From: Bryoerythrophyllum caledonicum
Lineage: Eukaryota; Streptophyta; Bryopsida; Pottiales; Pottiaceae
Reading direction: 5' to 3'
Assembly (NCBI GenBank): GCA_963971425.1
Contig: OZ020519.1
Location: forward strand, 21,845,397 to 21,909,396
DNA length: 64,000 bases
Numbering within the stretch: position 1 is the stretch's first letter; each line of letters begins with the position of its first letter. The position numbers were made by a program, and so were the translations under genes. Below the pieces are notes generated by a model. The model did no database searches and was not told where the DNA came from. It was given only the letters and a program-made list of their open reading frames with translations. Of this stretch, positions 4,310 through 53,118 are shown piece by piece.

Positions 4310-5050
4310 TCTTTGAAGATGTGCAATGCTGTGGGGGTGTGCCGCCAGCGGCACACCTTCCATCGCTCATTCCTTGGCACCTTTTAAGAACCAAGGTGTG
4401 AGTGATAGGGGGTGTGCCGCTGGCGGCACACCCCCACAGAGTCGCGCAATCACTCATTAGATTGACTTTGTGGGGATGTGCCGCCAACGGCACACCTCCC
4501 ATTGCTCATACCTTGGCACCTTTGAATGGACATAACTCACTCAAAATAGCCCAAATTAAGCGTTTGAGGTGTACTATGAAATCTAAATTTTTTGTAGATG
4601 CCAAAAAACATATTGCACGCTTCATGTGGACTATTTTTGAGTGAGATATGGCGATTTTAAGAACCAAGGTGTGAGCGATGGGAGGTGTGCCGCTAGCGGC
4701 ACACCGACATAGCGTCGCGCAATCACTCATAAGCACGACGCTGCGGGGGTGTACTGCGAGCGGCACACCTCCCATCGCTTATACCATGGCACCTTTTAGG
4801 AACCAAGGTATGAACAATGGGAGGTGTGCCGCTGGCGGCACACCCCCATTGCGTTGTGCAATCACTCATAAGCACGACGCTGCGGGAGTGTGCCGCTGGC
4901 GGCATACCCCTACAGAGTCGCGCAATCACTCATTAGCATAACTCTGTAGGGGTGTGTGGCCAGTAGCACACCTTCCATTGCTCACACATTGGTTCCTAAA
5001 AGGTGCCAAGGTGTGAGTGCTGGGAGGTGTGCTGCTGGCCACACACCCCC
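4310..5050. repeat. Array of nested inverted repeats built on GTGTGCCGCTGGCGGCACAC
   Basis: Ten copies of the short palindrome (about 4336, 4411, 4476, 4683, 4747, 4821, 4887, 4951 and 5025 plus a variant) alternate with two larger hairpins. Hairpin one pairs TCCCATTGCTCATACCTTGG with its complement across a loop containing CACCTTTTAAGAA. Hairpin two pairs CCCCACAGAGT with ACTCTGTAGGGG across CGCGCAATCACTCATTAG. One hairpin-one loop (4,530-4,660) is enlarged by an extra A/T-rich segment. The array sits between coding blocks of the ParB-like gene, so it is probably intronic. It can fold as a chain of cruciforms or, if transcribed, as a chain of RNA stems. Confidence 0.85.
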
Positions 5051-34451: not shown

Positions 34452-34459
34452 AGGAATAT

Positions 34460-34483
34460 GCCATATTTAACTATTTCTGGACT
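34460..34483 (+). repeat. Left terminal inverted repeat
   Basis: 24 bp, begins GCCATATTTAAC and ends TTCTGGACT; exactly the reverse complement of 53087-53110. Similarity stops at 34,484. Confidence 0.92.
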
Positions 34484-34681
34484 ATGAGGTGAATTCTGGA
34501 CTAAGGACTAAAAGAAAGATCCGGAGATGTGCCTCATAAGAGATAGTGAAGCATAAAAGTCGAGGAGTTTAGAGTACTATTCAAGCATTAAATGCATCAC
34601 CAATGACACTTATGAAGGAAGAAATGGCTAGAGCGACCAAATTTGAAATGGCTATACAATACGTGAGTCTACAGCATGCAG

Positions 34682-34867
34682 CCGGATATCTCCGGGTAAA
34701 TATCAAGGTGGAATTCAGAAGAAGAACCGAGTCCTGAGAACAGAAATTGATGGACATACTGTACATCACAAATGTGTGGTTAGGAAAAATGTGGTAGGGA
34801 AAACTGGGACAGAGCTACGGACAGAAAATACTCGCAATTGATAGAACATGCAACCGGATATCTCCGG
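34682..34867 (+). repeat. Two left subterminal asymmetric sites CCGGATATCTCCGG
   Basis: At 34682-34695 and 34854-34867, 222 and 394 bp from the left end. They differ from the internal palindrome at one base and so are not self-complementary. The identical variant is found only near the right end. Confidence 0.85.
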
Positions 34868-34983
34868 ATGAAATGAGAGTAAGAGTCCAATACTAAACTG
34901 TTTCATTATAAAAAAGTGTCATACAATAAATGAGGGGTGGCTGTTGCTAAGAGGCGCGTGTAATCTATGGAAAATCGATTCAA

Positions 34984-35514
34984 CTATTCTAATTTAAGTG
35001 CTTTACAGATGCCCTCTACCCGTCCAGTATGGTGTCTCCCATAAGTTAGATAATGAACTATAGCCTTTCTAGGATTCTTGAATGGATCTAGATCTGCAAC
35101 AACAACACATTTGGGCCACAAATAATGCCTTGTTCGAGGATTAAATGAAGCCTTCTTGAAGATGTGAAGAAACCTAACATAAGTGGGCCTTCGAGTTTGT
35201 TTGTTGGCATAGCATAAAAGAATATCTGATAAGATGTCTGGGGGCAATAACAATTGGGCCGCCTCCATGAGCCTATCTGGACGCATAGGAGACCAGATCC
35301 CGACATTGAAATACCGCAGTAGTATTCGAATAACATCTGCCGTGTCATCAAAGGAAGGCAGCTGCGTGGAGCGGGATTTGGCCGAGTCAAGGACCTCGTC
35401 CGAGCAGAGAGGACCGCGGAGTGATATGATTATGACCTGCAAATAAGAAGGCAAGACCATCGAATTAGAAATAGAGCACTGGAATGAGGAGAAAATATGG
35501 TAGGAGGAGTTCAA
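34984..35514 (-). CDS. Second FCP1/NIF-like protein, motif-poor
   Basis: Minus strand. A splice acceptor TTTGCAG precedes 35436, from where VIIISLRGPLCSDE runs to the stop at 34984 (about 150 residues). Elements align by eye with the FCP1-like domain encoded next door: VIIISLRGPLC with VVFDLNGVLV, VGIWSPMRPDRL with VSFWSSVLEKNI, and KCVVVADLDPFKN with DVLLVDDTPLKN. The nucleophile Asp is missing (S-L-R in place of D-L-N), so catalysis is unlikely; it could be a binding or regulatory paralog. The upstream exon or exons and the true start are not resolved; ATG 35514 is only the first in-frame Met of the open stretch. Confidence 0.55.
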   Translation of the reverse strand: MNSSYHIFSSFQCSISNSMVLPSYLQVIIISLRGPLCSDEVLDSAKSRSTQLPSFDDTADVIRILLRYFNVGIWSPMRPDRLMEAAQLLLPPDILSDILLCYANKQTRRPTYVRFLHIFKKASFNPRTRHYLWPKCVVVADLDPFKNPRKAIVHYLTYGRHHTGRVEGICKALKLE

Positions 35515-35529
35515 GTGACACGAATTCGA

Positions 35530-35543
35530 TCGGAGATCTCCGG
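35530..35543. repeat. Palindrome copy TCGGAGATCTCCGG
   Basis: One mismatch from the CCGGAGATCTCCGG consensus; lies between the two FCP1-like genes. Confidence 0.8.
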
Positions 35544-35791
35544 GTGACCCTCCCAGACCAACGTTCGGTAGACGAAATGGTGAGGAGAATACTCAGAAGT
35601 GATCACAGATATTGGAAGGTGAAGCTTGGGGGCGAGACACTAACAATAACAAATAAAAAGAAGGACCTCAACAAATAACGTTACTGACAACAACATTTAT
35701 CTTCAAAATTGAATGGTCGAAATCCCACAGACATCCTCGACGTAACATTTACAAAGCATAGAGATTAAAATAACCAGTATAATTCATTGTT

Positions 35792-38700
35792 CTAAGGAGC
35801 CGAAATTATGCCCTTCACCACGGACCGGGCCTCTTTGGAATTTTTGTCTACTGGATCACTGGCAAACATCAATGGATGACGTCTAACAAAGTCGGGAACA
35901 TCCTCATTCGACGCTAGCAGTCCGGAGAGCCATGGGAGAAAAATGGTGGACACCCAGGTATCTTTCGAATTCCCAGTCCATGATGGCGGATGAACTGCGT
36001 TGAATGAATCGTTAAAGACATTCTTTAGTGGAGTATCGTCCACAAGCAAGACATCCTTGGGAGACCTGGGGCACGCCTTAGCGTTATAAATTGTCAGGTC
36101 CTTAAGGAAAATTGGCTTCGATGGATAGGATGGGAGCGTATATGATGTTTTTGTGCAATGGGCTTGCGTCAGGATTGTGACGCCTTCCGGAATGACAACA
36201 CCTTTCTTGCGCAACTCCTTGATAATATCCACAATATTCTTTTCCAACACACTGCTCCAGAATGAGACTGTAGCTTTCTCTCCCACGAAGTTCAGGAGTT
36301 CAGTGGAACCAGGCCTTACTTTGATGTCTCTCGGTTGTCCCTGTTTGAATTCCCCCCTGTGCACAAGAACTCCATTTAAGTCAAACACGACATGATAAAC
36401 CCGATTGGATGTTACCTGATCCTCGGTTGGAGGCTCTCGGACGATCGTAGTAGGCTTCGTCGAACCTGAACCCAAAATACGAGTACGTAGACTGAGATAG
36501 GGAAGTTGTTCAGCAAAGTGAAATTTCAATTATACATATAGAAGTGTTCTGCACTCACAATCCAGAATTGCTGGGTGGAAAAATGAGCACAATATAGATG
36601 ATGGCACATAAGTATGAATGTACATATTAGGCACCTGGGACAGTAGGTGGAGTATCCCTAGAAGTCTGAGCTACACCAGAAACTTGAGCAGTCTGTGCGG
36701 GGTTCCTGTCACCGACATCCTTCGACTGTGTTGATCCTGCGGACCCCTGAATACCAGTAACGAAGTGGTAAGAATAAGGTCACTATCGAGTGAACTGTCC
36801 TTAGAACAATGAAGAAGGTTTCATGGACAAGTAACTATTCACCTTATCTTTTTGGGCCCTTGTCCGAATTGTAGATGGAGGTGGAGGAGCTTTCGCCGTA
36901 GGATTCTTCGCGATTGCTTTTTTCTTCTCTTTTTGAGCCAGCTGCCCGTGGCTCCGCGGAGGGCTGCGTAGAGGGCTCATAGCATGTAATTCACGCAATG
37001 TGTGCTGCGCCGACGCCTCATCCATGGTTTGATCGGTGTCACGCAACGTCAAGTCTTCGACACTCTTGCACACAACCTCCACTAATGGACGCGTCCTCGA
37101 AAAGTCGGCCAACGGGAGATCTCCGGGTGCTCTTTGGGAATCGTCAAAGTCCAGGCGATCGGACATTGCCGTGTCATCGTCCCGACCAGGCGAAGGAGAA
37201 CGTGGCATGCCGGAATGCCAATTGGTTTCCTTTTCAGGAGTACCGAGTCTAGCGGCCGGAGTAGAGTTGCTTCTCGAACTAGGCGAGGCTTGCCTGATAG
37301 GAAACGGTGGTTCATCAACGTCTACCTGTATAGGCGGGGATGGGGTGCCCGTTCCGACGATCCGCGCGGCAATGGCCAAGGACTGGAGTCCAATGTTGGG
37401 TGCAGCTGATGAACTCGGTTGATACCGCACATCAACTTCAATCATCGTAGCATCAGGCGTCTGCGTCACATTGACGAAGTCAGTGCGAAGAACATTAGGA
37501 TGCAATTGAAATGAGAACGGTATAATACACCCGGAGATCTCCGGTTTAAAGTGGTCCATGTGTACCGGGTGAACTATATCTGAGCAGGGCGATGAGAAAT
37601 ATGAGCCCTAATATATGCAGGGCATCCTAAACGTATGAACAACCGGAGATCTCCGGGTCATGTAGTTTTATTAGCTGTTATACCTCGCCGCTGTAGTTCA
37701 TCCTCGACATTGCCCGTGTTAGAACACCAGCGTCTGGGGTTGACCCAGTGATGGCAGTCTCCTCTGACTCCTCTGCAGCGGCGTCGGGTACGTCGGCTAC
37801 GTCGGCTAAGAGATTCAAGTGGTACTTGAATATTTCTTCAGCACAGGATTCTGCCTTGAGTTTGGCATCTTCGCTGCTCACAATCTCGAGGACCCGGGCG
37901 TCGTGAGTCTGCAAGATAAAGCCTGTGTAAGGCAACATCCAAAACATATACCAGAAGACGGACCAGAAATCTATGACGTTGAAGTGCTTGGGAAGGATGA
38001 TCAGCATACCAATCCGAGGTATGTGAAATATGGTCCACCATGGACATTGACGACCACCATATCCTCTCTAATGAACCCCGTGAACAGCAAATCAAGGACC
38101 GAGATCCTGAGCTGTGGGACACCGGTTTGCTTCCAACGCTGGATGGTTTCTGGATGTTGAGCAGCTGAATAGAAGGCCTGCATTTTGTCAGCGTGGACTT
38201 TGTAGAGCCTCTTGAATGACTGAGCTGGCGTCTCGCTGGAGTCGTATTCATATAGGAATACACAATACACTGCCTCCTCGACCCCGATTACTGGGGTCGG
38301 AAACCAATCACCTGGGTGGGGGAAGTAGTAGACAACATGCGTCGCCCACAATTTCACCTTGCCCCTGGACTCTCTCTGTCGAAGACTGATGTACTTCTTC
38401 AATTCAACGAATCCCGCGACATCGGTGATAAGGACGGACGGTGATCTGACCCTCGTCCTCCCGTCCTTCGTGACCACTTCCAGATGGTCGAAAATGGTTC
38501 TGAAGTCCAACGCATCCAGGACCTGTGCACGGCATATGTCGTCTTTCACGCGATAGAGAAAAAAGAAGTACAAGTGAGGGTCATTGACGTTACGCCACTC
38601 CTGAATGTCCGGCATGATAAGTACTTCGGCGATCTCGCCCCCTCTCTCTGGCATAATCCTGCAGGTGTATTTGGAGTCGAACAGGGACATGTCATCCATG

Positions 38701-40816
38701 GGTGTGGCCTCGGCAGCATCTTCAACGATGTGTTGACTCCAAATGGACACAAGGACCTCAGGGGTGGGATCGGTGTCCTTGTTGATCGCCTTTAGTCGAC
38801 CCTCAAGCCAAGCTTTACCCTTGGCAGAGTGATTAGCGGCGTCCACCCAGGACTCGAGCTGAACCCGTCCAATATCCCACTCTGCCGCAAAGGTGTCCCA
38901 CTGATCCTTCGTGTAAGGACGAAGTCAGCAGCCTTCGAGGGAAGCGGGTGCGACTTGTAATTTAACATGAGTTCATTCTTCATAGCCCGGATTCTCTTCT
39001 CCCTGTTCGCCGCATTTTCGAGTGTCTCGGCCTGCCCTTTCATAGTACCTTGGTTTGCCGCTTTGGAGGACTTCACACAGACCTTCTTCACGAGCACTAA
39101 CTCCGCGAGGTAGTCAAGGTCTTCAGCGCGCATTTTATAGAGTGGCTTGAAGTCGTTCTGCACCAAAGGCTTCCGCTTTAGCTTAGCTGGGTCGCCAGTC
39201 TTCCCGTTCGAGTCTGAAAGGAGTCCAGCGACGAACATCCTATCGATTTGGATCCACTTCTGGACCACGGCGTCGTCCATCTCGAATAGAAGAGGGACCT
39301 TCGCGTCTTTTGGGTCAGTTTTGCCGAGGTGAGTGAAAACCGTCGGCACCACTTGCCGTTGGAACGTCTGCAAAAATATACAACTCAGTGTGTGTGCACC
39401 CGGAGATCTCCGGTAGATTGGATTTGTTGCTTGAAGAATGAGCTCATTGATGAAATTGAAATATATTCAGGTGGAGGATGTAAGCTTACCGAGAATTCGT
39501 CAGATTGTGGACGACCATAGAGTTGGGGGGCGGGTTTCCCGAACTCAAACCACTTCACTCTGCACGTTTGCAGCTGCTGAGTAAAACTCTGCTCCTTCCG
39601 CAGACCCGTCAGATCCTGGTTCAGAGCTCGCGAGAGTTGCAGCAGGGTCATGTCTTTGGGGTTTGGTTTGGTCCAAACCGGGATGATTGAGAAGTGCGAT
39701 ATTTCTTCGAGCGTCCACGTTGATGGCAGTTCGTGTGACAAGATCTTGTGCGCCTCCACAGTATACTGACCACCAATAATGTAAAAGTGTGTCGTGTCCC
39801 TAAGGCAGTCCTCCTTCGTCGGTTTGGTCGCGAAGAACTCCACCTTAGTTCCGTCAGGTTTATTCTTCAGTGGCAAGACTCGAATGTGAATCTCTGGGGC
39901 CGTGGCCTTCGACGACGCACGAACTGCGTTGATGATTCCTTCGAGCCGTTCTTTCTGGATGCCCCTGTACACTAATCCTCTAGGGGGGGCCCTATGTAGA
40001 TTATTGAAATGAACGAGCTTCACGACATCCTTCTTCGTGACAGGGTCTTCTACTGTCAAAGGCTTATTCTTGAGTATGTATATGTTCTTGAACGCGTCGT
40101 CGAGAACCTTGCCAATTGCTTCAACTTCAATCCTCTTCATTTTGGCAAGGTCAGCCTGTGTGAAGTTTAGGCACTTTTCGATCGCCAGGCCAGGCTCATC
40201 GGCCTTCGCTTTCTTTCCCTTCTCTGCCCGCGACGAGGAACCTGGGGTCGAAGTTTTCACGGTTGTCTTGCGTTTTCTTCCCGGGGTTGATTCTGGTGTC
40301 AGGGACAGAATGGGTGTCGGGTCTGGAACGGGCTTTTGGGACTTCTCTTGTGCTTCTGCCATCCACTTCCACTGCTCATTAACGTACGCCGGGCTCCATG
40401 TATCACTCGTGGGAGGGCTGAATAAGAAGTTCTCATTCTGACATGTCTCCGCCATCTCATCCGAAATCTTAGATGTCTCCAGAATCAAGCCGTATATGAG
40501 AGGCTCGGTGGATGAGTCCACGTTCTCCTGGACGATAAGGAGGCAGACATCGTCGTCAAGACCCTGCATCTCTAGAACCTCGAGTCCAATGTCGGGGTGT
40601 CCCCGTTTTCCAATCCGAAGTTGGGGGACGTATGTCCAGGGTTCTTCAGGGGTTTTCAAGAGCTTCATTCCCCATTGGGTAATGCTCTCTCGGCATTTGT
40701 AGACGTAGCCAACATTGTGAATTCCTCTGTAGACAAACTCAGGGAGCCAGAACTCTACAAACGCCCCAAGCTTCCCGGGACGACTTTCAGTCGGAAGTGT
40801 GGTTGTCCACGAATCC
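35792..40816 (-). CDS. Large spliced protein: ParB/Srx-like region plus C-terminal FCP1/NIF phosphatase domain
   Basis: Six exons on the minus strand: 40816-39490, 39367-38010, 37908-37684, 37460-36843, 36746-36635, 36465-35792. All have GT donors and AG acceptors and matching phases (0,0,0,0,1), giving about 1,440 residues; an upstream exon must supply the start. Exon 1 contains basic TPGRKRKTTVKTSTPG (nuclear signal) and HFYIIGGQYTVEAHKIL, a ParB-like block parallel to DGNHRLQAW in the 2.85-6.25 kb gene. Exon 4 is Ser/Pro-rich. The last exon is an FCP1/SCP-type HAD domain: VVFDLNGVLV (nucleophile Asp kept, second Asp is Asn), VSFWSS, FLKDLT and VLLVDDTP. The one defect is a 2-bp frame break at about 38,911-38,914 in exon 2. 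The combination suggests a DNA-bound protein that could act on, or mimic action on, the RNA polymerase II tail; this is inference. Confidence 0.7.
37114..37127. repeat. Palindrome copy CGGGAGATCTCCGG inside a coding exon
   Basis: Lies in exon 4 of the large minus-strand gene, where it encodes part of RAPGDLPLAD. One arm base differs from consensus. Confidence 0.75.
37531..37656. repeat. Two palindromes in an intron
   Basis: Exact CCGGAGATCTCCGG at 37531-37544 and 37643-37656, both inside the intron 37683-37461 of the large minus-strand gene. Confidence 0.85.
39400..39413. repeat. Palindrome in an intron
   Basis: Exact CCGGAGATCTCCGG within the 122-bp intron 39489-39368 of the large minus-strand gene. 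Confidence 0.85.
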
Positions 40817-41049
40817 CTGCAAGATGAGTTCGAGAGAGCACAAAGGCAGTTAGAAATCACTGCAATTGACCGGTATCCTATGGAGAGTCCGTCACTCAAA
40901 ATCGGCTGCATTCCTAGGGGTGTATGATAGAAATCGAACTTCTAAAATAGTTTATTACTTCCCAAGCGAGGGGAGGTCTTCGCACAATCATCAGATCTAC
41001 AGATACTTGACTGATCTTAAATCGCTTGAAGTATCTTGCATGAGCTCAG

Positions 41050-41513
41050 CCGGAGATCTCCGGTTCGTCAGGAACGATCTGTAGCCGGCGTGAGGGGGTA
41101 TCGAAACATGCTTGAAACGTCCCGAAATCTATCGCTCTATGTCGGATTGTGAGCAGCAATGGCGTTCGTTTTCGAATAATTCCATTGCGAACATATCCGG
41201 AGATCTCCGGCTGATTTGCGAGTGTCGTGTGCACCCGTCCAGGAACGATTCGGTACGTATCAGCCGGAGCCACTTCTGTCCTGAACCGGAGATCTCCGGA
41301 TGATGACCTGAATGTCGAGTTTCACGATGTTCACATCTTCCTACGCGCGTATATGCACTACTTCGTAACGTCCGGAGATCTCCGGATATTTCTGAGATAT
41401 ACTAAATCGTGGGAAAATAAATCATGATTTATCCTACCTCGACAATATCCGGAGATCTCCGGCTGATTATTGAAACTCTGTATTCCGTTTGGGATGCAAT
41501 CGGAGATCTCCGG
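41050..41513. repeat. Cluster of six palindromes 5' of the minus-strand gene
   Basis: Starts at 41050, 41197, 41286, 41372, 41449 and 41500; five exact and one (41500) with T as first base. Spacing falls from 147 to 51 bp. Several are followed by CTGAT. The cluster lies upstream of the large visible exon, in an intron or promoter region. Confidence 0.88.
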
Positions 41514-42088
41514 CTGATGCAAGTACGGATTAACATTGCACTAATCGCAACTTACCATCACGCATAAATTCACATTCATTCACAGAGAAGTTTGACATAC
41601 TACACTGGAAGTCTTACATACTCAAAATTCATGTTTCAAGTTACAAAACACACTGAGACGAATCAAATGCTCTCACAATGCTTTCAATAACCGACCTTAC
41701 ACACAGGAAATTGAATCTGCAAATGTTCCGATGGAACGCCAAATGTGAGGTTTGCACATGGATTACTCTTGTCATTAAATCGGACCGGACTCGACGGACT
41801 CAGAATGGACAAGCACATTCTGATGTTCGTGCAATACCATCATCACTCGCAAATTCATAATTCGAAACACACTTCTGTTCATGGGACATCAAAAATATAA
41901 TCGACTATAGCCTAACAAATATCTGAATTCTAGTACTCATCATCTGAGGTTTCTCTTCATTATTTAAGTGTACTTTGTTGCCATACACCCGCTAGGAATC
42001 AAATGAACAAACTTGAATCACAGTTAAATATAGAATCCACACACAGTCACTCGGACACAGTGAAAACAGTTCAATGTTGTGGACTTAC

Positions 42089-42311
42089 CGGTCTCCTTTC
42101 CATGATGTCTCACTCGACGTTCCAGCTCCCGGTCGCCATTTCCCAACCTCCTCGAGGAACTCCTCGGGATCGAAGCGAATTCATAGCTCTGGATGACATC
42201 AACGTTCAACAACTCAGCCTCACAAACTCTACAATTTTTCAGATGCCCTAGAATTTCAGGTCCACATCTCATTGACAAGATTTCCGCAAAATAAATTTCA
42301 ACACTGCTCAT
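42089..42311 (-). CDS. Possible first coding exon of the large minus-strand gene
   Basis: ATG at 42311, open to a strong donor ACCG|GTAAGT at 42089/42088. It encodes 74 residues with GHLKNCRVCEAEL, a His/Cys cluster that could bind zinc, and a basic end. It ends in phase 1, while the 40,816 exon needs phase 2, so at least one further exon must lie between (41.0-42.0 kb) if they belong together. Confidence 0.4.
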
Positions 42312-44789
42312 TTACGGATAACATGCTCATTTACACGCATAACATGCATAACATGCTCATTTCCGGACCTTCTATACTGAATGCACTGAATACCAGAACC
42401 CTATACCCTAAGCCCTACAATTCCGCTTCAACGTCTAACAACATCAGAATTACTCGACTCTCTTGAACCCTAATGGCGCTTACCGAACCCTACACCTGCC
42501 CTAGTTCCGATTCTAAGCAGTCCTGGGAAACTTCGATATTTGATGACACTGAATTTTAATCTGTGAGACAGTACATACCTCTTCACTGACCGATTCGGCG
42601 CACCCGTTCCTCGTGGTCGTTCGTGAAGACGCCACCCTCAACCGCAACGTCGTTTCAGCTTCGCTCGTGAACCGAGGCGCTCGCTAAATTTAAAATCCTA
42701 TTTCAGTATCTCTGTTCCAGTCCTGCTCTCCGACCTTCAGTCCATATCCAGAAACAACCTCTGGACGATATGCTCAATGTCCCTCACTTTTATCAACACT
42801 CACCTCGCACACCGACAGCCTCTCACAGCGCACACCGCCCTAACCTAATGCGTTGACGCCTACTGCGCAAACCACGAAAAAAACCCCTCCCGCCACTTCC
42901 GCTCACTACCTACGACATTACAAACACAACACCCATAAAAAACAAGAAAGGTTTGATGCTTGGAGTTCCCCTAATCCGATAGGGACAAGCTGGACGGCTC
43001 AAGGGCTGTGACGGCTCATGATGACAGTGGGTGAACTTTAAAATCAGCTCTAATCACGTACATATTCAACGTGTACATTTCACAATCATGAATTGTCAAT
43101 GTCGTGAGCATGCGTGACAAGACGTATTGATACCCGGATTCCTGGGTATTACATATGGCTACAGTAGATACTCGGGTTCACCGGGTATTAGAGTAATCAT
43201 CATACTTGAATTTAAAACGTCATAAGTGAAAAAGCTTAATCTCCCTCTCCGTTACACTCCCTCCCTTCTTTCCCTCACTTGTTTTTCTTATTTATGTTAT
43301 GCTCTCCCCTCCTTTTCCATCTCCATCTCATTTTTAATCTTGATTCTAGTAGTTTTTAGGCTCCCCCTGATTTCAATAATTATACATTCTTAAATTAACC
43401 TACTACTCTAAAAATAAATCCCGCACTCTTCCTTGCTTACTCTCCCTCCCTATCCCTTATTCTCCCTCACTTCCTTACTCTCCCTCTCCATCTCTTTTCT
43501 AATTTTGACTTTTTTTTTATTCCCTAAATTCCCCTAGTGCCATATTCTAAAAATATAAATTACTTTAAAATAAATCCCTCCCTTACTCTCCCTCTCTTGC
43601 TCTCCCTCTCTGCCTTATTCTCCCTCGCTTACTCTCCCTCCTACTTGTTTTTTATTTTTATACTCTTACTATCCTCTCCTTCTCCATCTCCATCTCTATT
43701 TTCCTTTTGAAGTTTACTTTTTTGGATTTTCCTTCTTTCAATAAATTCACATTTCAAAATTAAATAACTACTCTCAAAAACAATCCCGCACTATTCCTCG
43801 CTTACTCTCCCTCCCTATCCCTTATTCTCCCTCCCTACCCCTTATTCTCCCTCACTTCCTTACTCTCCCTTTCCATCTCTTTTCTAATTTTGACTTTTTT
43901 TTTTATTCCCTAAATTCCCCTAGTGCCATATTCTAAAAATATAAACTACTTTAAAATAAATCCCTCCCTTCCTCTCACTTTCTTACTCTCCTTCTCAATT
44001 CCTGTCCTTCCCTTACTCTCCCTCTCCCTTGATTTTAATTTATTTTACTTTTAATTACCCCTCCTACTCAATATCCATTCTTGGTTATTAATATTGTACT
44101 ATTGAAATAGTCAAATTATTTTTTCTATTCTATTCTATTGCATTATTAAATCATGCATAGGTTTCAAAGAGGTATATACTTTGTTGTTACCTTTCTTCTT
44201 AATTATTTTGTGATATTAAAACTACATTAATGGTTGAACTAATGCGTTGCAAAGCAAGCCCCAACTCCTAGCCATAGTACTAAAATCAGAATTTGCGCCA
44301 TAAACCACGAAGTGAACTATCGCGTAGTCAACCATGCTGTGAACTACAAAAACGCTACTTGAACCGCGGTGTCAACTGTACAGTGAATCATTCCACCTTT
44401 CATTTTTTCGTATTTTTAAATATTAAAAATACATAAAAATGATGACAATGGGCTAATGCATTGCAAAGCAAGCGCCAACAGCTAGTCTACTCTAAAGTTA
44501 TATCCATTATCCTCCCTCTCTTCTTTATTCTCCCTCTAACTAAATTATAATCTATCAAAGTCTTAAATAGTTAAAATTCAATTATCGCTAAATTTTCTTA
44601 CACGCTATTGAATCCAGTTTTTTTTTAAGTTATAACTGTTATTGATAAATTTAAGGTTATAGTCCATAGAATCAATAAATTTCTAATTTATAGATTTAAA
44701 GGTGATATAAGCCCTCGACCTTCATGAACCCAGAACCTTCCACGGTGAATCGTAAACCGTGAACCCTTAACCTTCAACCCCAAACCGTG

Positions 44790-45072
44790 AAGTAGAAACC
44801 CTAAACCCTAAACCCTAAACTGTAAATAGTGAACCCGAAATTTTAAACCGTAAACCCTAAACCTAGACCCTAGACCCTAGACCCTAGACCCTAGACCCTA
44901 TACCCTAGACCCTAGACCCTAGACCCTAGACCCTAGACCCTAGACCCTAGACCCTAGACCCTAGACCCTAGACCCTAGACCCTAGACCCTATACTGTAGA
45001 CCCTAGACCCTAGACCCTAGACCCTAGACCCTAGACCACAGACACTACACCCTAGATCCTAGACCCTAAAAC
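44790..45072. repeat. Interstitial telomere-like array, CCCTAAA turning into CCCTAGA
   Basis: Three perfect CCCTAAA units at about 44,800-44,820, then a shift to roughly 25-28 almost uniform CCCTAGA units (44,865-45,065) with rare CCCTATA, and a ragged end. CCCTAAA is the usual plant telomere repeat. The uniform A-to-G variant suggests local amplification after capture. Confidence 0.85.
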
Positions 45073-45291
45073 CTGTAAACCCTAAAACCGTGATGAACAA
45101 TCCTGCCTTACCACGGAAGCAGTACCCGTTTTCATAGGACCAGTTTAAAAGCATCTGCTCAGTTATATATTTCTACACGTATCTACAAAAGTAGACAAAT
45201 AGCTTTTGTCGAACAAGGAAATTTTGGAGATATTTCACATTGGAAACGAATGTCGACGTTCTACTTGTGTCCTGTAGTGTCAGTTGAACAA

Positions 45292-46374
45292 CACTACACT
45301 AAAAGTTTCATTTAGTGTAGTGCACACTAAATACGAACCCATACACTAATTGTCAACTATGCAATTACTGTAGTGACAAAATAGTACACTAAATGTGAAC
45401 TACTACACTATTTGTGAACTTTTGTAAACCCTATTGGAATATTAACTATTTAACTCGTGCACGTTTAGTGTATTGAAAGTAGAAGAGAAATATGTTTTGT
45501 CAAAGGTGAAGAAGAGATAAAATAAAACTCATAAACAATAAATTGGAAAAACAACAATTGCGAAAAAATAATAATTAGGAAAAAACAACAATTTGGGAAA
45601 ACAACAAATAGGTAAAAACAACATTTTTGCGAAAACAACAATTAGGAAAAAACATTTAGGAAGAAACAACATTTTTGAAAAAAACAAGAACTATGAAAAA
45701 ACATCAATTCGGGGAAAAAAGACAACTTACCATTTGAAAAGGTAAACTTTTGTAAAAATAAGCTTTCCCAAATGTAAACATTTGAAAAAGTAAAGATTTG
45801 ATAACGTAGACGTTTGAAAAAGTGAACTTTTGAAATAATTTTCTTTTGAAAAAGTGAACTTTTGAAAAGTAATTGTAAGGTAAAGTAAGGTTTTGAAAAA
45901 ATAAATGTTTGGTAAAAGTAATTGTATGGTAAAGTAAAAATTTGAAAAAGTAAATGTTTGGTAAAAGTAATTGTATGGTAAAGTGAAGTTTTGAAAAAGT
46001 AAATGTTTGGTAAAAGTAATTGTATGGTAAAGTAAAGTTTTGAAAAAGTAAATGTTTGGTTAAAGTAAATGTATGGTGAAGTAAAGTTTTGAAAAAGTTG
46101 ATGTTTGGAAAAGTAAATTTTGTAAAAGTTAACTTTTTAAGAAGTAAAACGTGAAATAGTAATATCTTGTAAAAGTAAGCTAATAAAAAATAAATTTCCA
46201 TGGAGTGTACTCCGATAAAGTTATTATTGATGAAGTAATTTTTGATCGAATTAACTATTTAGAATGTACACTTCTTTGCAATTAGTACACTATTTGTCAA
46301 GTTGTTTGCAATTAATGTACAAAGGTAAGTACACTATTCGTGCAATTACACTAAATGAAACTTTTAGTGTAGTG
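45292..46374. mobile_element. CACTA-type non-autonomous inverted-repeat element
   Basis: Left end CACTACACTAAAAGTTTC... (45292-45319) is the reverse complement of the right end (46347-46374) over 28 bp, and similarity continues for a few more bases. The left end is itself a near-perfect fold-back (CACTACACTAAA...TTTAGTGTAGTG). CACTAC is the classic start of EnSpm/CACTA elements, but I see no matching 3-bp target duplication (CAA against GGC). It carries no ORF; inside it the ACTAAATGTGAAC motif recurs and a 49-bp array lies at 45,871-46,110. Confidence 0.7.
45871..46110. repeat. 49-bp tandem repeat, five copies
   Basis: Units beginning AATTGTATGGTAAAGTAAAG at 45871, 45920, 45969, 46018 and about 46067. 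It generates a false Phe/Leu-rich ORF on the minus strand. Confidence 0.88.
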
Positions 46375-47217
46375 GGCAGCAGTGGGCCGACTGTTATCCA
46401 TGCGTAGGGTATAATTTCATTCACAATGGTGAGTACAAGAAGAATAATACGATTACATTATACTTAGTCCATGTATTGATACGGCCCTTGTAATCACAAA
46501 GACACACCATGGGGCATACTTCATCTTCCGTTTTCTAATTTGCAGCACTCTGTAGACTAGATGGTTTCCTTACAATACGGTCATCCCACGAGTACGAGCC
46601 ATTCACTTATCATGAGTGGAATGTGGCCTCGGTCGTGGGCACGTCGAAGAATGCGCACTATCATGATGGTGTACAGCTGCTACTATGATAGAGAATGCAT
46701 GCCTAAGATTCGTTTCAAATTTGAGCGCCTGAATTTTCCCACCAGGAGGTGATGAGGAGGTTGATAAGAGTAACCTTCAACTCAGCTCTCATCCTTTTTT
46801 GCTCTAGAGGTTTGGGATACTGTGGGAGCTGAGCCAGTTAGTGAGAGTGTTTGTGTGCGCGACATCGTGCTGGAATTCTGCAGGGAAACAATTCGACAGT
46901 AGGTCTTCCAGGAGTGTTAGGATTGTATCCTCGTATAATTTCAAATCGGCATTCAATTTGATAGGATTGGTATAGATTGTGTTTCTCTTCGCCCTCAAAG
47001 TCGACTGGAAGCTGTCGTGTAGTGATTCAGTTACTAAATCGTCTCCTAATTAAGAGATAGATCCGGAGCGCCTAAAATATTTCGACTCGAGAAGTAGGAT
47101 GACCACACTGATCGGGGTGTGAATCCGAACAGTTCTCAGGGATTGACAACTTAATCTTTCTGCCACAGCCTCGAATGTTCCGTACGATCAATGTTTCGAT
47201 ATCGACGTTGATTCGAA

Positions 47218-47513
47218 CCGGAGATCTCCGGCTGTTCTAGCCGTGACATTCTGGATTCTGCCGTGCTCACTTGCAAGCCACGGTAACTATCGAAAAAACA
47301 TCTGGCTGTCCCATTTATGAGCCCAGTTTTCCCGGAGATCTCCGGCTATTCATGGGCGAAATGATCATTGAACGATATCACGGCAGCGTGGCTGGGATGA
47401 ACCGGAGATCTCCGGTAAGATTCGAATAGAACTTCTAGCTTCACCCTTCACATCCTCACTTACACGAGGAATGGACGTTGCTGTTCAATATCGAGTCATC
47501 CGGAGATCTCCGG
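47218..47513. repeat. Cluster of four palindromes upstream of the DUF7869 gene
   Basis: Exact CCGGAGATCTCCGG at 47218, 47332, 47402 and 47500, ending 115 bp before the ATG of the plus-strand gene. Three of the four are followed by CTG or CTA. Position suggests a promoter or silencer role. Confidence 0.88.
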
Positions 47514-47627
47514 CTAGACACTCCCTACGATTTTGACCATGGATTTTCAGTTCAAATCCACGTCCATATATTCATGTACTAAAGCCATCGGTTAGCAGCC
47601 GAACATCGACCGACGGAGGCAGGAAGA

Positions 47628-50600
47628 ATGTCTGACTCTGATTGGTGGGAGAGTGACTCGGACGATCTTGCCATGGTCGCAGCTCAGTGCCCCGAATTCT
47701 GTCGAGCGGATTCTATGGAGGAAGATGATCCATCCGAGGAGTCTACTGGAAGGTCGGAGGTTTTGTGGTCAGGATTGTCCGTGAACCTCTTGAGGCCAGG
47801 CTCAGGCGAAATTGGAGAAGCATCAATTGTCGAGGTCCACCCAGTTGGTCAATGGCTTGGAGTTGACATACCAGTCGGTTCCAGTGAGTTCGTATTACTC
47901 AGACCAACGGCCATAACGTCTTTGGCGGAAGAATTTCCACTAATTCCCTTGCAACGCGGATATTGTTCACTTGTTCAAACACTTCGGCGGACGGTCCTGT
48001 GGAGAAGGGCGGATGTGAAGATTCCTACCGGAGATCTCCGGTCCGACGAGTCCCCTTTCGTTCCACGTGAGAGATGGGTTGGACTTGAAGTACAGCGATT
48101 GGATGGGAATCTGTTAGTACTCTGCTCTGGTAGAATCATGGCGTCGTTAGCTGGGGATCACTTCCGAAGTGGATGCTTGGAAGAAGATAACATTGGTGTA
48201 ACTGTCCTCGACGTTTTTGTGGGGGACACGGAGAGAATTATGAGTCATGAATCGTGGCCCATTCTTGAATGCTGTTTTCCTTCCGGGAGGTCTTTAAAAA
48301 GCACAATAGATCATTTCGCATCCCTGCCATTACAACCTGATTCTGGTGCTTATTTGGGGGGTCGTGCAAAGGAGCCTTACCGCTTTATTTCCCGACAGCA
48401 AGACCTTAACAAGAAAGAATCCTTGTACACCAAGAGGACTATGGATGACGAAATTCGCAAAGTCAGCTCTGAAAGGTGCTGTCCCAGACGATGCTGCCAA
48501 TACTTTCAACAATCCCAGATTCTCTCTGTTAGACAGAAATTCTATGACAGATCCTTTGAAGACCGAAAGGAGTATGCGATCTCGGTAGGCGGCCAGTTTC
48601 ACTCAATTGACGGGGACCGGAAGAGAAAGTACGTCACTCTATTAGGAACGGAGGTCTGCTCCGTTGCATGGTACACGATCCATGGAATTCGGAAGTCCAC
48701 GTTTCACTCGTATATCGCACATTTCAGTAGAGGAATCATCAATGCAACTCACGGTAACAAGGGCATCAAGCGTCCACGGCTTGCCACTATTCAAGCAATG
48801 GGGTCAATGACGTCGATTATTAATGACAACGCGGATCAGATGCCTCACCAAATGCGTAGTGTAGGGAATGGTCGGATTGACACTCTCAAGTATCTTCCTG
48901 TGGGAAACAACTGGAAGCAAATTCGAGCAAGCGTCAATGCTGTAAGTTACTTGTCCCTGCACAGTGATATGGATTTGAACTCTCTTTCTTCAGTCGACCG
49001 AAGTCCTAGTTAGTGAACCGGAGATCTCCGGCTGTGTCAATGTTGAACTGAAATTTCCATTCTTTGCAATACTCTGATCATCGCCCTGTCTGCTGGATTA
49101 TCCTTCTGATATACTGTCCTCACTTGGTAATTATTTCATCTTGCAGACAAACGACTCCTACGGTCTTCCTCCTATAAGTCAGTCCACAGTTAGCAGGGTT
49201 AGAAAGGAAGTCTTCGGGAATGTTGCTATTAAGCCATCTGGAAGCACCTTCGCAAAATGCAGTACTTGCGATGAATTCAATCAGTTCTTACTGACGACTC
49301 CAAAGGGAACGCCCACTTACGAGCTATTCTATAGCAACAGGCAAGCTCACTTGAATCACCAGCAATCTTGCCGGAAGCTCTACGCGACATGGAGAGAGGA
49401 GTCGAAGGCGAAGCCGCTCACCTTTCTTTGTGTCATTCACGACAAGATGGACACTGCGAAGACTGCCCTTCCTCGCATGTGGAGGACTACGAAGGCGACA
49501 TCTGGTCTCGGACAACTTCCCATGAATGTCACTGGAATGGTGGCTCACGGTCATGTCGACGGAGCGTATGCTCACTATGCTCTTGCTTTATGGCCTGGAG
49601 ATTCGAACGCCACCATCTCCTCCCTGGCAAAACTTTTTCGGCGGCTTGAGGGAGCACCTTTACATGAGACGCGCGCACTCTTCGAGCACCCACCTCCAAA
49701 CTCGATGTTCGCGGCGCTCATGAGGGGAAAGAGCAGGTGCGTGGACGCTTTAGAGCCCGTGGAGCCGAGTGCTTTTAAGGGACCGAAACCTTTGCCACCG
49801 AAATTGTTCCTACAGCTTGACAACTCCGCGAAGGATAACAAGAACCAATACTTGATGGCATTCTTATCACTGCTAACTGCTCGAGGTGTTTTCAAGGAGA
49901 TACAGGTTGGCTTCTTGGTCGTCGGACATACGCATGAAGATATTGATGCTTACTTTAGTCATCTTTCGAAAGAACTGAAGAAAAGCAGTACATATATTCT
50001 AGCGGATTTGATGAAGGCATTCATGAAGTCACAGAAACTAGCCTTCATGCCGGAAGTTATCCAAGAGGTCGCCGACTTCAAATCGTATGTCGATGGCTAT
50101 CTATGCAGCGGGGCGGGACGTCTGGTAGGACTTAGTGATATGCATCTTTTCAAGTTCTTCGTTGACAATGACGGTGTTCCGGTCATGAAGTTCAAGAAAT
50201 CTGCCGTTGACGCAGAGTGGTTATCCATGAACAGAGAGCCGATAAAACTTTGGAAGGTAGATGACTTCGGACGTCCCATGCTTCCATCAGGATCTCCCAA
50301 GCCCGTTCCATTCAAGCCCATATGGGGTAATGAGGAGCAGAGCCCTGTTGGAAACCAAGATGTTGCCAGAGACAAGGCCAGGAAAGCGACGGAGAACAAG
50401 AACTTTATAAAGATGGGGCTTCAGAAGTACGTTGACTACTGGGCGTCCGGAATGACTAAGTGCGCAGGGTACGCGGACTCCATTCGCCCATACCTGCAGT
50501 ACTGGAAGGATGTCATCGACGAGCTTGACAAGCCACTTCCCCAGACGCCTTCCGATCTCAAAGAGGGATTCTGGCCTGCCCATGATTGGAGAGGCCCTCA

Positions 50601-50928
50601 TGAGGGAGGTGAAAATCTTCTTGGACTGCTTCCACAACCAGAGGATGTCACTCCCGAGGATGAGGTTCTTGAGCCTTATTGCGGACCCGCTAATGAAGCC
50701 CCCAAGTCTACATTTAATCCTTGGCGTGACATTCGTCATGGCTCCTGGGTTTTAGTAAGACCTAGTGATCCTGACATCTATCCTGTCTGGCAGGGAAGAG
50801 CAGTTTCGGAGGTCGTCAGGGAAGATGGTAATGTCAACTACGGGAAATTCCTCGTTAAGTATTGGGAGCCTGATAACAAGCAGAAGAATCTGAAGAGGAA
50901 GTATCAGGACTGTTGGGAAGCCACTTAG
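47628..50928 (+). CDS. DUF7869-type protein, probable DDE transposase of the giant element
   Basis: Exons 47628-48941 and 49147-50928, joined at phase 0 (GCT|GTAAGT ... TTGCAG|ACA), give 1,031 residues. Order: acidic N-terminus; ERCCPRRCCQYF, a paired-Cys block; a second Cys pair KCSTCDEFNQFL; then three acidic blocks VIHDKMDTAKTALP, FLQLDNSAKDNKNQ and VGHTHEDIDAYFSHL, the layout of the DUF7869 family, which I read as an RNase H-like D...D...E/D catalytic core; C-terminal SWVLVRPSDPDIYPVWQGR, a BAH/Tudor-like strand region. Such proteins are common in repeat-rich algae, bryophytes and invertebrates. It lies in plus orientation 0.6 kb from palindromes on both sides; one palindrome is within its first exon and one within its intron. 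No frame damage is seen. Confidence 0.82.
48028..48041. repeat. Exact palindrome inside DUF7869 coding sequence
   Basis: CCGGAGATCTCCGG read in frame as part of PTGDLRSDE in exon 1. The surrounding protein remains open. Confidence 0.88.
49018..49031. repeat. Palindrome in the DUF7869 intron
   Basis: Exact CCGGAGATCTCCGG followed by CTGTG, inside the 205-bp intron 48942-49146. Confidence 0.88.
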
Positions 50929-51176
50929 GTTGCGGACCAAGAGAAGCCTGTTTGGTGTCATGTGAGTTCCGTGTTGTTTGCGACCTGGTCAAGCAAAGTT
51001 AACCAACTTACGAGGTCCATTCCACGGAAAATGAAAGAAGCAGCGCTTGTGAACTTAGAGAAAGCGAATGCCGCTGATCCTTGATACGTTTATCACTCCC
51101 TCTAGCAATTATTCAGTTCTGTGAAATTCTCTTCGTTTAAAATTTCGAAGAATTTCTACGTTCACACCGAAGAGCA

Positions 51177-51677
51177 CCGGAGATCTCCGGCTGTGGGCGA
51201 ATTTATTTATCTGGGCCCGAGTTCGGCATCCTTTCTTTCAGCTCTTGCGAGTCAGCGTGAAGAGGACCGAAATTGTACTCTTCCATTCAATGAAATTTGG
51301 GTACATTGAGGAGTGACAGAGTTACTGTTGACTCAATTCTGCCAGCGGTATATTGTTGGACCCTCACGTCTTTCTGAAAGCTTACCGGAGATCTCCGGCT
51401 GTGGAAGTAATATTTTGTGGATCTAAGGATGTTCGTATATTGCCATGTTTCAGTCGGTGAGATCTAGCCGGAGATCTCCGGCTGTGGAAGTAATATTTTG
51501 TGGATCTAAGGATGTTCGTATATTGCCATGTTTCAGTCGGTGAGATCTAGCTGGAGATCTCCGGATAGGAGATTCACATCCCCCATTCTAGTTAATGGAG
51601 ATCCAATTTTGAGCTTCCCAATTTTGAACTTACCTAGGTGTTCTTAATAGTATTGAATCATATCCGGAGATCTTCTG
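51177..51677. repeat. Palindrome cluster with 83-bp tandem duplication
   Basis: Copies at 51177, 51385 and 51468 (exact), 51551 (CT in place of CC) and a degenerate one at 51664. The 83 bp beginning at 51385 is repeated almost exactly at 51468, each unit starting with a palindrome, and a third palindrome begins the next position (51551). Consensus flank is CTGTGG. The cluster lies in the 3' region between the DUF7869 gene and the acidic-protein gene. Confidence 0.88.
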
Positions 51678-52152
51678 TGGCTTCGATAATGCATTTCAAT
51701 TTACGATGGATGTTTCAACAATGTATCAGAGACCTTTCGGTTATTCCCGTGGCTGTTTCCTTCTTAGATTTTTGACATGCCATAAGTAAAATTATAATAC
51801 GCGGTTAATTACACACTTCATACTAGTTGTACGAGGACCTTCTTATCCTTCATGTGATGCTAATGGTTGGCGGCGGAGATTGTACTTCGCACATCACGTT
51901 ACGACAGCACGCTTGACACGTCGCGTCCCATGTTGGTCATTCGTGTCTGTGGAAGCTGCCTTTATTTTTATCAGTCTCGGTGTTATGGCGACTTCTATCA
52001 ATGACTCATCCTTTACCTACGCTCGAGACGTGTAATAAATGGGTTGGTAGGGAGGATAGTATAAGAAAGGGTTCGGGTCTTCACCAATTCACATGTTTTG
52101 TCTTTCAACTTGTTAGTTCTGTTAGTCGATAGCCAGGGTTGAGAGAGAGGAT

Positions 52153-52590
52153 ATGGCTATAGCAAGTAGGAAGAGGGAGAGGGAAGAGTCTGATTCGGTA
52201 GACCGTAGAGTTTCTCGAAGGATCGTGAGCGACGCTCAGGGTTCGGAGAGGGGACGACTGCTACGCTTTCAAGTCGGGTACACAGGGGCAATGGGTTCCA
52301 TTCGGCATGCTCGGGACGAATTGGAGGAGGACGCTCAGAGCAAGTATGTTCCAGAGGAGGAGGACGGCAGCGACTATGAAGCGAAGGACGAGAACGAGGT
52401 CGACTGTGATGAAGATGAGTTGGTCTTCGGAGGTCGTTTGGTTGAAGATGAGGAGGAGGACGACCTCTGGTATGTTGACGAGGAGGAATCTTCTTCGGAG
52501 GGCGGCTGCAGCCCATTTCAAACTGGTTGTGACACAGGGTCTGATGTTGATTCGGACATGTATGCGCCGGCGCACTGGAAAGATTTTTAG
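52153..52590 (+). CDS. Small acidic protein of the giant element
   Basis: ATG at 52153, 145 codons, stop at 52590. The first 35 residues are basic (SRKREREE, VSRRIVSD, a likely nuclear signal); the rest is strongly acidic with EEEDGSDYEAKDENEVDCDE and EEESSSEGG. Low complexity, probably disordered. A TATA-like AGTATAAGAAAGG lies about 95 bp upstream. No family recognised; a small acidic partner of transposase or chromatin would fit. The terminal SDMYAPAHWKDF is the only conserved-looking, non-acidic motif. Confidence 0.6.
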   Translation: MAIASRKREREESDSVDRRVSRRIVSDAQGSERGRLLRFQVGYTGAMGSIRHARDELEEDAQSKYVPEEEDGSDYEAKDENEVDCDEDELVFGGRLVEDEEEDDLWYVDEEESSSEGGCSPFQTGCDTGSDVDSDMYAPAHWKDF

Positions 52591-52773
52591 AAGTCTTCAG
52601 AGGTAGTGCCAGGATAGGTTTTGCTCTTTCATGCAGGAATTTCACTGAGACTAATCATTGCTGTCTCGTAGAGTTGATCAAGTATGTGATGGTCTTGTAC
52701 ACGGACTCCCTTCCGAAAAAGCAATTTTGTTTTTCAAAGCTCACCAACTGTTTTCTGCTTTCCCTGCTTTCGA

Positions 52774-52985
52774 CCGGATATCTCCGGCTCTTTTAACGGC
52801 ATCCATGAAATGTCAATGCCTTCTGCTCTATGTTCATTTTCTCTAAATTCTTCCCCTAAGTACTCCATGGGAAGAAAATCGAGTCAGTACAATTTCTGTC
52901 GATAATACTGTACCTTGCCTTGAGCAAGGTTCTATCACTGTAATCGGTTCGTATCGTCTGACTGTAATCATCCGGAGATATCCGG
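52774..52985. repeat. Two right subterminal asymmetric sites
   Basis: CCGGATATCTCCGG at 52774-52787 and its reverse complement CCGGAGATATCCGG at 52972-52985, 323 and 125 bp from the right end. With the left pair these are the only ATATC variants in the element. Confidence 0.87.
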
Positions 52986-53068
52986 CTGAATGACTTAGTT
53001 TATTTTTATTTGTATCCCTCTCAATCTATTGGGTGCCACAATTCTACTACACTGAAATCCTTCTTCCT

Positions 53069-53110
53069 TATTTCTAGACTTTGCAAAGTCCAGAAATAGT
53101 TAAATATGGC
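53069..53110 (-). repeat. Right terminal inverted repeat with internal fold-back
   Basis: The TIR itself is 53087-53110. It overlaps a hairpin, TATTTCTAGACTTTG paired with CAAAGTCCAGAAATA (53069-53098, one mismatch, no loop), that has no counterpart at the left end, so the two ends differ in potential secondary structure. Confidence 0.88.
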
Positions 53111-53118
53111 ATGAATAT

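Follow-up and report, generated by a model that had tools for sequence, protein, structure and literature searches.

In the bacterial parS/ParB system, a clustered palindromic site is read by one dimeric protein. The TnpA protein of En/Spm (CACTA) elements has repeated short sites near the element ends and in the promoter region, and acts in both transposition and regulation; these sites are 12 bp long, are not palindromic and occur in the end regions only, and CACTA insertion gives 3-bp target duplications. VANC proteins, in the parts of two studies available to us, bind short motifs that crowd the noncoding DNA of the VANDAL family to which they belong, with a different motif from family to family (PMC5735166, PMC10398659). 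Fungal TET/JBP elements, as far as the accessible part of their description goes, are DNA transposons with an extra gene of DNA-methylation metabolism (PMC12730594). Here we analyze a 64,000-nt stretch of the genome of the moss Bryoerythrophyllum caledonicum (contig OZ020519.1; hereafter the window), which contains an 18,655-bp DNA transposon at 34458-53112, bounded by terminal inverted repeats (TIRs), that holds 26 sites of a 14-nt palindrome, CCGGAGATCTCCGG, and encodes a DUF7869 protein, its probable transposase. The window's own copy of the element is called W, and four relatives elsewhere in the 437-Mb genome are called copies A to D.

With VANDAL transposons and their VANC proteins, as described in the available parts of those studies, the moss element shares a short motif that is present in many copies within one family, lies in introns and upstream regions and is rare elsewhere (PMC5735166, PMC10398659). 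A repeated motif of this kind, confined to the family and placed in noncoding regions, is what we found at the first 50 of 2,718 genomic places. VANC motifs are 8-9 bp long, non-palindromic, arranged in same-orientation tandem arrays and subject to fast turnover, whereas the moss element has a palindrome of 14-20 bp, scattered at mostly stable positions, with a variant form at the ends, a DUF7869 protein and 4-bp target duplications. Unlike En/Spm, it has sites throughout its length and 4-bp duplications; unlike parS/ParB, its sites are spread along 18 kb of DNA in a nuclear transposon, and a ParB domain was not detected. It resembles the TET/JBP elements in being a DNA transposon with an extra gene, here one with an NLI-interacting-factor-like (NIF) phosphatase domain, and no TET/JBP domain was found. 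The initial annotation of this DNA, made from its letters, had offered both parS/ParB and VANC as parallels. The VANC parallel is the better functional match, but the scan of ten protein pieces identified neither a VANC nor a Mutator protein, while the ParB parallel finds no backing in Pfam or NCBIfam, where neither the exon described as "ParB-like" nor its two relatives match a ParB domain. Neither "DUF7869" by name nor the 14-mer is mentioned in the literature searched, whose coverage leaves out most subscription-journal papers, and no similar report stood among the matches listed on moss transposons or on palindromic motifs and anti-silencing within transposable elements.

Allowing up to two changes, W contains 17 exact sites (37531, 37643, 39400, 41050, 41197, 41286, 41372, 41449, 47218, 47332, 47402, 47500, 48028, 49018, 51177, 51385 and 51468), eight with one change (34682, 34854, 35530, 37113, 41500, 51551, 52774 and 52972) and one with two (51664). 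All 26 fall at 34682-52985, inside the TIR-bounded element, and none occurs at this threshold in the other 45 kb of the window, in agreement with the earlier estimate of about 26 copies within one transposon. At lengths of 10, 12 and 14 nt, no perfect palindrome in the window is as common as that of CCGGAGATCTCCGG, which has 22, 19 and 17 copies; at length 10, every other perfect palindrome has at most two copies. A single perfect 20-bp palindrome, GTGTGCCGCTAGCGGCACAC, stands at 4685-4704, in window DNA outside the element. The sites at 37531, 37643, 39400 and 49018 had been assigned to introns, and this placement holds: intron limits were taken from the window sequence, and splice sites and reading frames were checked against copies A, B and D. 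The DUF7869 gene has one exact site in its intron (49018, in 48942-49146) and one in coding DNA (48028); that the latter and 37113 lie in coding exons had not been noted before.

The confinement seen in the window is borne out by the genome. Exact copies of CCGGAGATCTCCGG number 2,718, against 3 for the reversed control, a count that rules out an origin by chance. The first 50 of these sites in positional order extend to 6.79 Mb on contig C1, and every one belongs to one of four relatives of the element (16, 16, 7 and 11 sites). The four related copies that were read all keep the word.

The sites are longer than their 14-nt core. Of the 52 arms of the 26 sites, read outward, 41 have T at the +2 position, and at +3 there are 29 with G and one with T; the same symmetric flank preferences are seen in copies A, B and D, and the actual site is about 20 bp, CAN-14-mer-NTG. 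The CTG reported to follow many of the copies does follow 9 of 26, but it is one arm of this longer dyad. Because the 40-nt flanks are otherwise unrelated (mean 10.30 matches, background 10.21), the sites are not one dispersed repeat, and we reject both a simple repeat and a single dispersed repeat unit as their source; the exception is an 83-bp tandem duplication (51375-51457 and 51458-51540), absent from copies A to D, that added one site in W. At either end, the two outermost sites share a single fixed change, CCGGATATCTCCGG, which is in reverse orientation at the outermost right site. This variant makes up 17 of the 30 one-change variants in the five copies, all 17 close to an end, and was found at no interior position in any copy read. 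The fourth end site of copy A is CCGGATATCTCCGG with one further change, and in each of W, A, B and D a distance of 127 nt separates the outermost right site from the end.

The sites are also far better conserved than the DNA around them. Identity to W in copies A, B and D is 78.8%, 78.9% and 84.0% in noncoding DNA and 88.5%, 88.1% and 91.0% in coding DNA, and rises to 98.8%, 97.3% and 96.3% at site positions; our main statements on conservation rest on these three copies. Across the 23 noncoding sites, with gap columns and the coding-masked sites 35530, 37113 and 48028 excluded, 277 of 280 positions are identical in A, 286 of 294 in B and 296 of 307 in D. None of the 5,000 random window sets drawn for each copy matched the sites (0/5,000, three times), their highest identities being 0.896, 0.894 and 0.931. 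Site positions are mostly stable across the copies, and C-to-T and G-to-A changes make up 13 of the 21 within sites, a pattern to be expected if the copies are methylated and decaying. Judged from these comparisons, the sites appear to be selected and private to the family.

The TIRs, together with 4-bp duplications in further copies, establish the element and its ends. Allowing at most two mismatches, we count 281 genomic places with the TIR, 147 on one strand and 134 on the other, and none with its control. Target duplications of 4 bp flank 13 of the 13 copies in which both ends were read, namely W, A and B (TAGG and ACAA in the latter two) and ten more, picked among the listed exact-TIR pairs, where the duplication is exact in 10/10; in C and D the left end is unreadable. 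By its inverted repeats and fixed-length target duplication, the element is a cut-and-paste DNA transposon. Its termini, ATGCC...GGCAT, and its 4-bp duplications set it apart from CACTA/En-Spm, a group with CACTA termini and 3-bp duplications. Elements of the Sola superfamily also make 4-bp duplications. One 9.7-kb deletion derivative (L036, C9:24946960-24956845), about 97% identical to W and flanked by the duplication TCGG, has lost the minus-strand gene entirely but retains the DUF7869 gene; its 14 sites are four end variants and ten exact interior sites. In copy D (L013-L015), the left part is 91-94% identical to W and the right part about 85% or less, and this copy is possibly a recombinant between subfamilies.

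The DUF7869 protein has 1,031 residues encoded in two exons and matches PF25273 with 156.8 bits against a cut-off of 26. Its conserved motifs HDKMD, LDN and GHTHEDID suggest an RNase H-type transposase, and its nearest named relatives are in Physcomitrium patens (48%) and Ceratodon purpureus (46-47%). A viral origin was rejected, as no viral contig was found to encode a relative of the DUF7869 exon and the best PHROGs match had an E-value of 0.067; no known RNA family reached its gathering score. The second gene, on the minus strand, has at least six exons, and its 5' end was not found. Its C-terminal part (35792-36465) is an NIF-type phosphatase domain (PF03031, E 1.3e-15), an unusual cargo for a transposon gene, and its N-terminal part, the "ParB-like" protein of the initial annotation, contains no known domain in Pfam or NCBIfam; PF25273 and PF03031 were the only profiles above cut-off in the scan of ten protein pieces. 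With residues 1-900 scored, a search with the full-length protein found no relative among proteins of like length, and the first exon alone has two fragment relatives (P0018, 51%; P0019, 37%). Compared with A, B and D, nonsynonymous (dN) and synonymous (dS) divergence is 0.04-0.05 and 0.34-0.35 for the DUF7869 gene (dN/dS about 0.10-0.15), and 0.05-0.09 and 0.17-0.39 for the first four minus-strand exons (dN/dS 0.2-0.3), ratios by which both genes appear to be under purifying selection; the NIF exon (0.45-0.53) and an acidic open frame near the right end (0.47-0.68) are looser. The minus-strand gene of W carries one frameshift near 38917, and A, B and D have defects of their own, so that some decay, at the least, marks the copies read.

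DUF7869 is abundant in this genome, with 150 scored matches among 3,609 first-look candidates. We read four loci of other DUF7869 families (F37 to F40), three of them with extra upstream DNA and 66 kb in total, whose transposases are 26-28% identical to that of W. None of these 66 kb holds CCGGAGATCTCCGG at up to two changes. F37 (L037/L043) has a different word, a 24-bp palindrome in ten exact copies, two per unit of a roughly 2-kb tandem array 5' of the gene, and F39 and F40, with transposases 94% identical to each other, have two copies and one copy, respectively, of a 22-bp palindrome upstream. The genome holds 287 copies of the 22-bp palindrome and none of its control. Among 20 listed DUF7869 genes, six have this palindrome no more than 8 kb away, upstream in each case, and 0 of 20,000 random placements did as well; this test spans the range of the first 50 of the 287 places (C1, C2 and C3 to 13.13 Mb, with C2 taken as 40 Mb), and the two loci that yielded the word lie outside it. 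Besides the 22-bp word, F39 (L041, ~8643) and F40 (L040/L042) each have one 14-nt palindrome around GTACGTAC. Seen in two of the three groups sampled, these words are a first sign that each DUF7869 family may have one private palindrome.

Confinement of the sites seen, conservation, dyad symmetry with symmetric flanks and absence from the four other DUF7869 loci, three of which bear long palindromes of their own, argue strongly that the palindromes are, as the initial annotation proposed, recognition sites for an element-encoded protein. The roughly 20-bp dyad would fit a protein dimer, and the most likely candidate for the binder is the DUF7869 transposase itself or a partner protein, the transposase being favored because DUF7869 is the known component common to the palindrome-bearing loci. 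We give an even chance to the reading that the palindromes are family-private self-recognition sites for such a dimer, serving both self-activation or anti-silencing and end recognition. The transposase, or its partner, would occupy many of the element's sites simultaneously: interior sites near the two divergent genes would recruit it and keep the element's promoters active against silencing, and the less symmetric variant sites would help it assemble both ends for excision. Each DUF7869 family would tend to have its own word, so that a family would act on its own copies only. More tentatively, we suggest that DUF7869 elements of plants may in general carry a private long palindrome per family that coevolves with the family's own protein, and that the present family may have a two-part code, with one word in the interior for expression and anti-silencing and a fixed half-site variant at the ends for excision.

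Several observations weigh against these self-recognition sites and their extension to other families. Site 41050 is gone in A and B, 47402 is gone in A, and 37531 has five changes in B; lost sites go uncounted in the 23-site test because gap columns are excluded. Copy C retains only 165 of 188 site positions, which is partly misalignment of its truncated 5' part. The ten 24-bp copies of F37 are not independent because they lie in a tandem array, and the 22-bp word has just one or two copies per locus read, against 26 sites in W. F38 (L038), whose transposase is 78% identical to that of F39, has a single 14-nt palindrome and no repeated one of at least 10 nt in the 10 kb read, and 14 of the 20 listed DUF7869 genes, many of which may belong to other families, have no 22-bp site within 8 kb.

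A different binder is possible, if doubtful: in a VANC-like anti-silencing system, the minus-strand protein, with its N-terminal part and NIF-type phosphatase, would take the place of the transposase at the sites and strip silent chromatin from the element as a whole. Purifying selection on its gene and the phosphatase domain would suit this role, as would the gain of one site by tandem duplication and the placement of sites in introns and upstream regions, which is like that of VANC motifs in the part of the study available (PMC5735166). The same partial source, however, prints those motifs as dense, in one orientation and not as palindromes (PMC5735166), profile scans found no known DNA-binding domain in the protein, and its first exon has no relative, though distant ones can escape, across the other DUF7869 loci (66 kb), palindrome-bearing ones included. 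That the system is pure architecture, a protein bridging the ends of an 18-kb element with no role in expression or silencing, is unlikely. It would account for sites that span the whole element and for the fixed end variant, with the outermost right site at a constant 127 nt in four copies and spacing free elsewhere, but bridging does not need dense clusters 5' of genes.

Those same clusters, which precede both main genes, could be host transcription factor sites captured to drive the element's genes, were it not that the first 50 genomic sites all lie in element copies, that the window's 45 kb outside has none, and that sites also occur in introns, in the 3' region and close to both ends; we consider this origin very unlikely. 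A ParB/parS-like partition or spreading system, which clustered palindromes and a short minus-strand motif, GGQ.TVEAHK, reminiscent of ParB-type proteins would bring to mind, is highly improbable, as three members scanned against Pfam and NCBIfam gave no ParB family at E-values up to 10 and no PDB sequence matched below E 0.1. Least credible of all is inheritance alone, by which copies would have the word in common through recent descent. The single further copy from the group of W to be read at length is indeed about 97% identical, but A, B and D differ from W at 16-21% of noncoding positions and at 1-4% of site positions, a disparity that refutes recent common descent as the sole cause unless the alignment is biased towards sites.

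Table 1. Features of the element in the window (positions are those of the window; A to D are related copies).
Feature	Position	Strand	Evidence or comparison
Target site duplication GAAT, left	34454..34457		Identical four letters at 53113-53116
Left TIR, 29 nt	34458..34486	+	97% complementary to right TIR
Two left-end sites, fixed variant CCGGATATCTCCGG	34682, 34854 (34682..34867)		Same variant at both positions in A, B, D
Open frame, possible small extra gene or exon, contains site 35530	34984..35592	-	Many invariant runs in A, B, D
Minus-strand gene, six exons found (39490-40816, 38010-39367, 37684-37908, 36843-37460, 36635-36746, 35792-36465)	35792..40816	-
Intron with two exact sites (37531, 37643)	37461..37683	-	Frames and splice sites in copies
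Intron with one exact site (39400)	39368..39489	-	Frames and splice sites in copies
Six-site cluster 5' of minus-strand gene	41050..41513		D 6/6 positions (three with one change); A and B 5/6
Nested insertion, 28-nt perfect inverted ends starting CACTACACTAAAAG	45292..46374		W only; missing from A-D
Cluster of four exact sites 5' of DUF7869 gene	47218..47513		B 4/4 (one with one change), D 4/4 (one with two changes), A 3
DUF7869 protein, probable transposase (exons 47628-48941, 49147-50928)	47628..50928	+	PF25273, E 6.3e-46
3' cluster, five sites	51177..51677		Positions compared with A-D
145-aa acidic open frame	52153..52590	+	Open over an equal length in A, D; disrupted in B
Two right-end sites, fixed variant	52774; 52972 reversed (52774..52985)		Compared in copies
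Right TIR, 29 nt	53084..53112	-	Pairs with left TIR
Target site duplication GAAT, right	53113..53116		Read from sequence

Two further features inside the element are recorded here. The nested insertion at 45292-46374 (Table 1), which resembles a small CACTA-type or miniature inverted-repeat transposable element insertion, contains many short tandem repeats and is not part of the palindrome system. An array of telomere-like 14-nt units of the type ACCCTAGACCCTAG occupies 44798-45068.

If the self-recognition proposed here is true, the use of a private word to recognize one's own family, known from VANDAL transposons of Arabidopsis, would turn out to have emerged also in a transposon of another type, one that is abundant in this moss genome. 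Diverging families with words of their own would then form a natural series in which to follow how protein and site change together, and would amount to a set of orthogonal sequence-specific binders. The palindromes also provide a lead on the DUF7869 domain.

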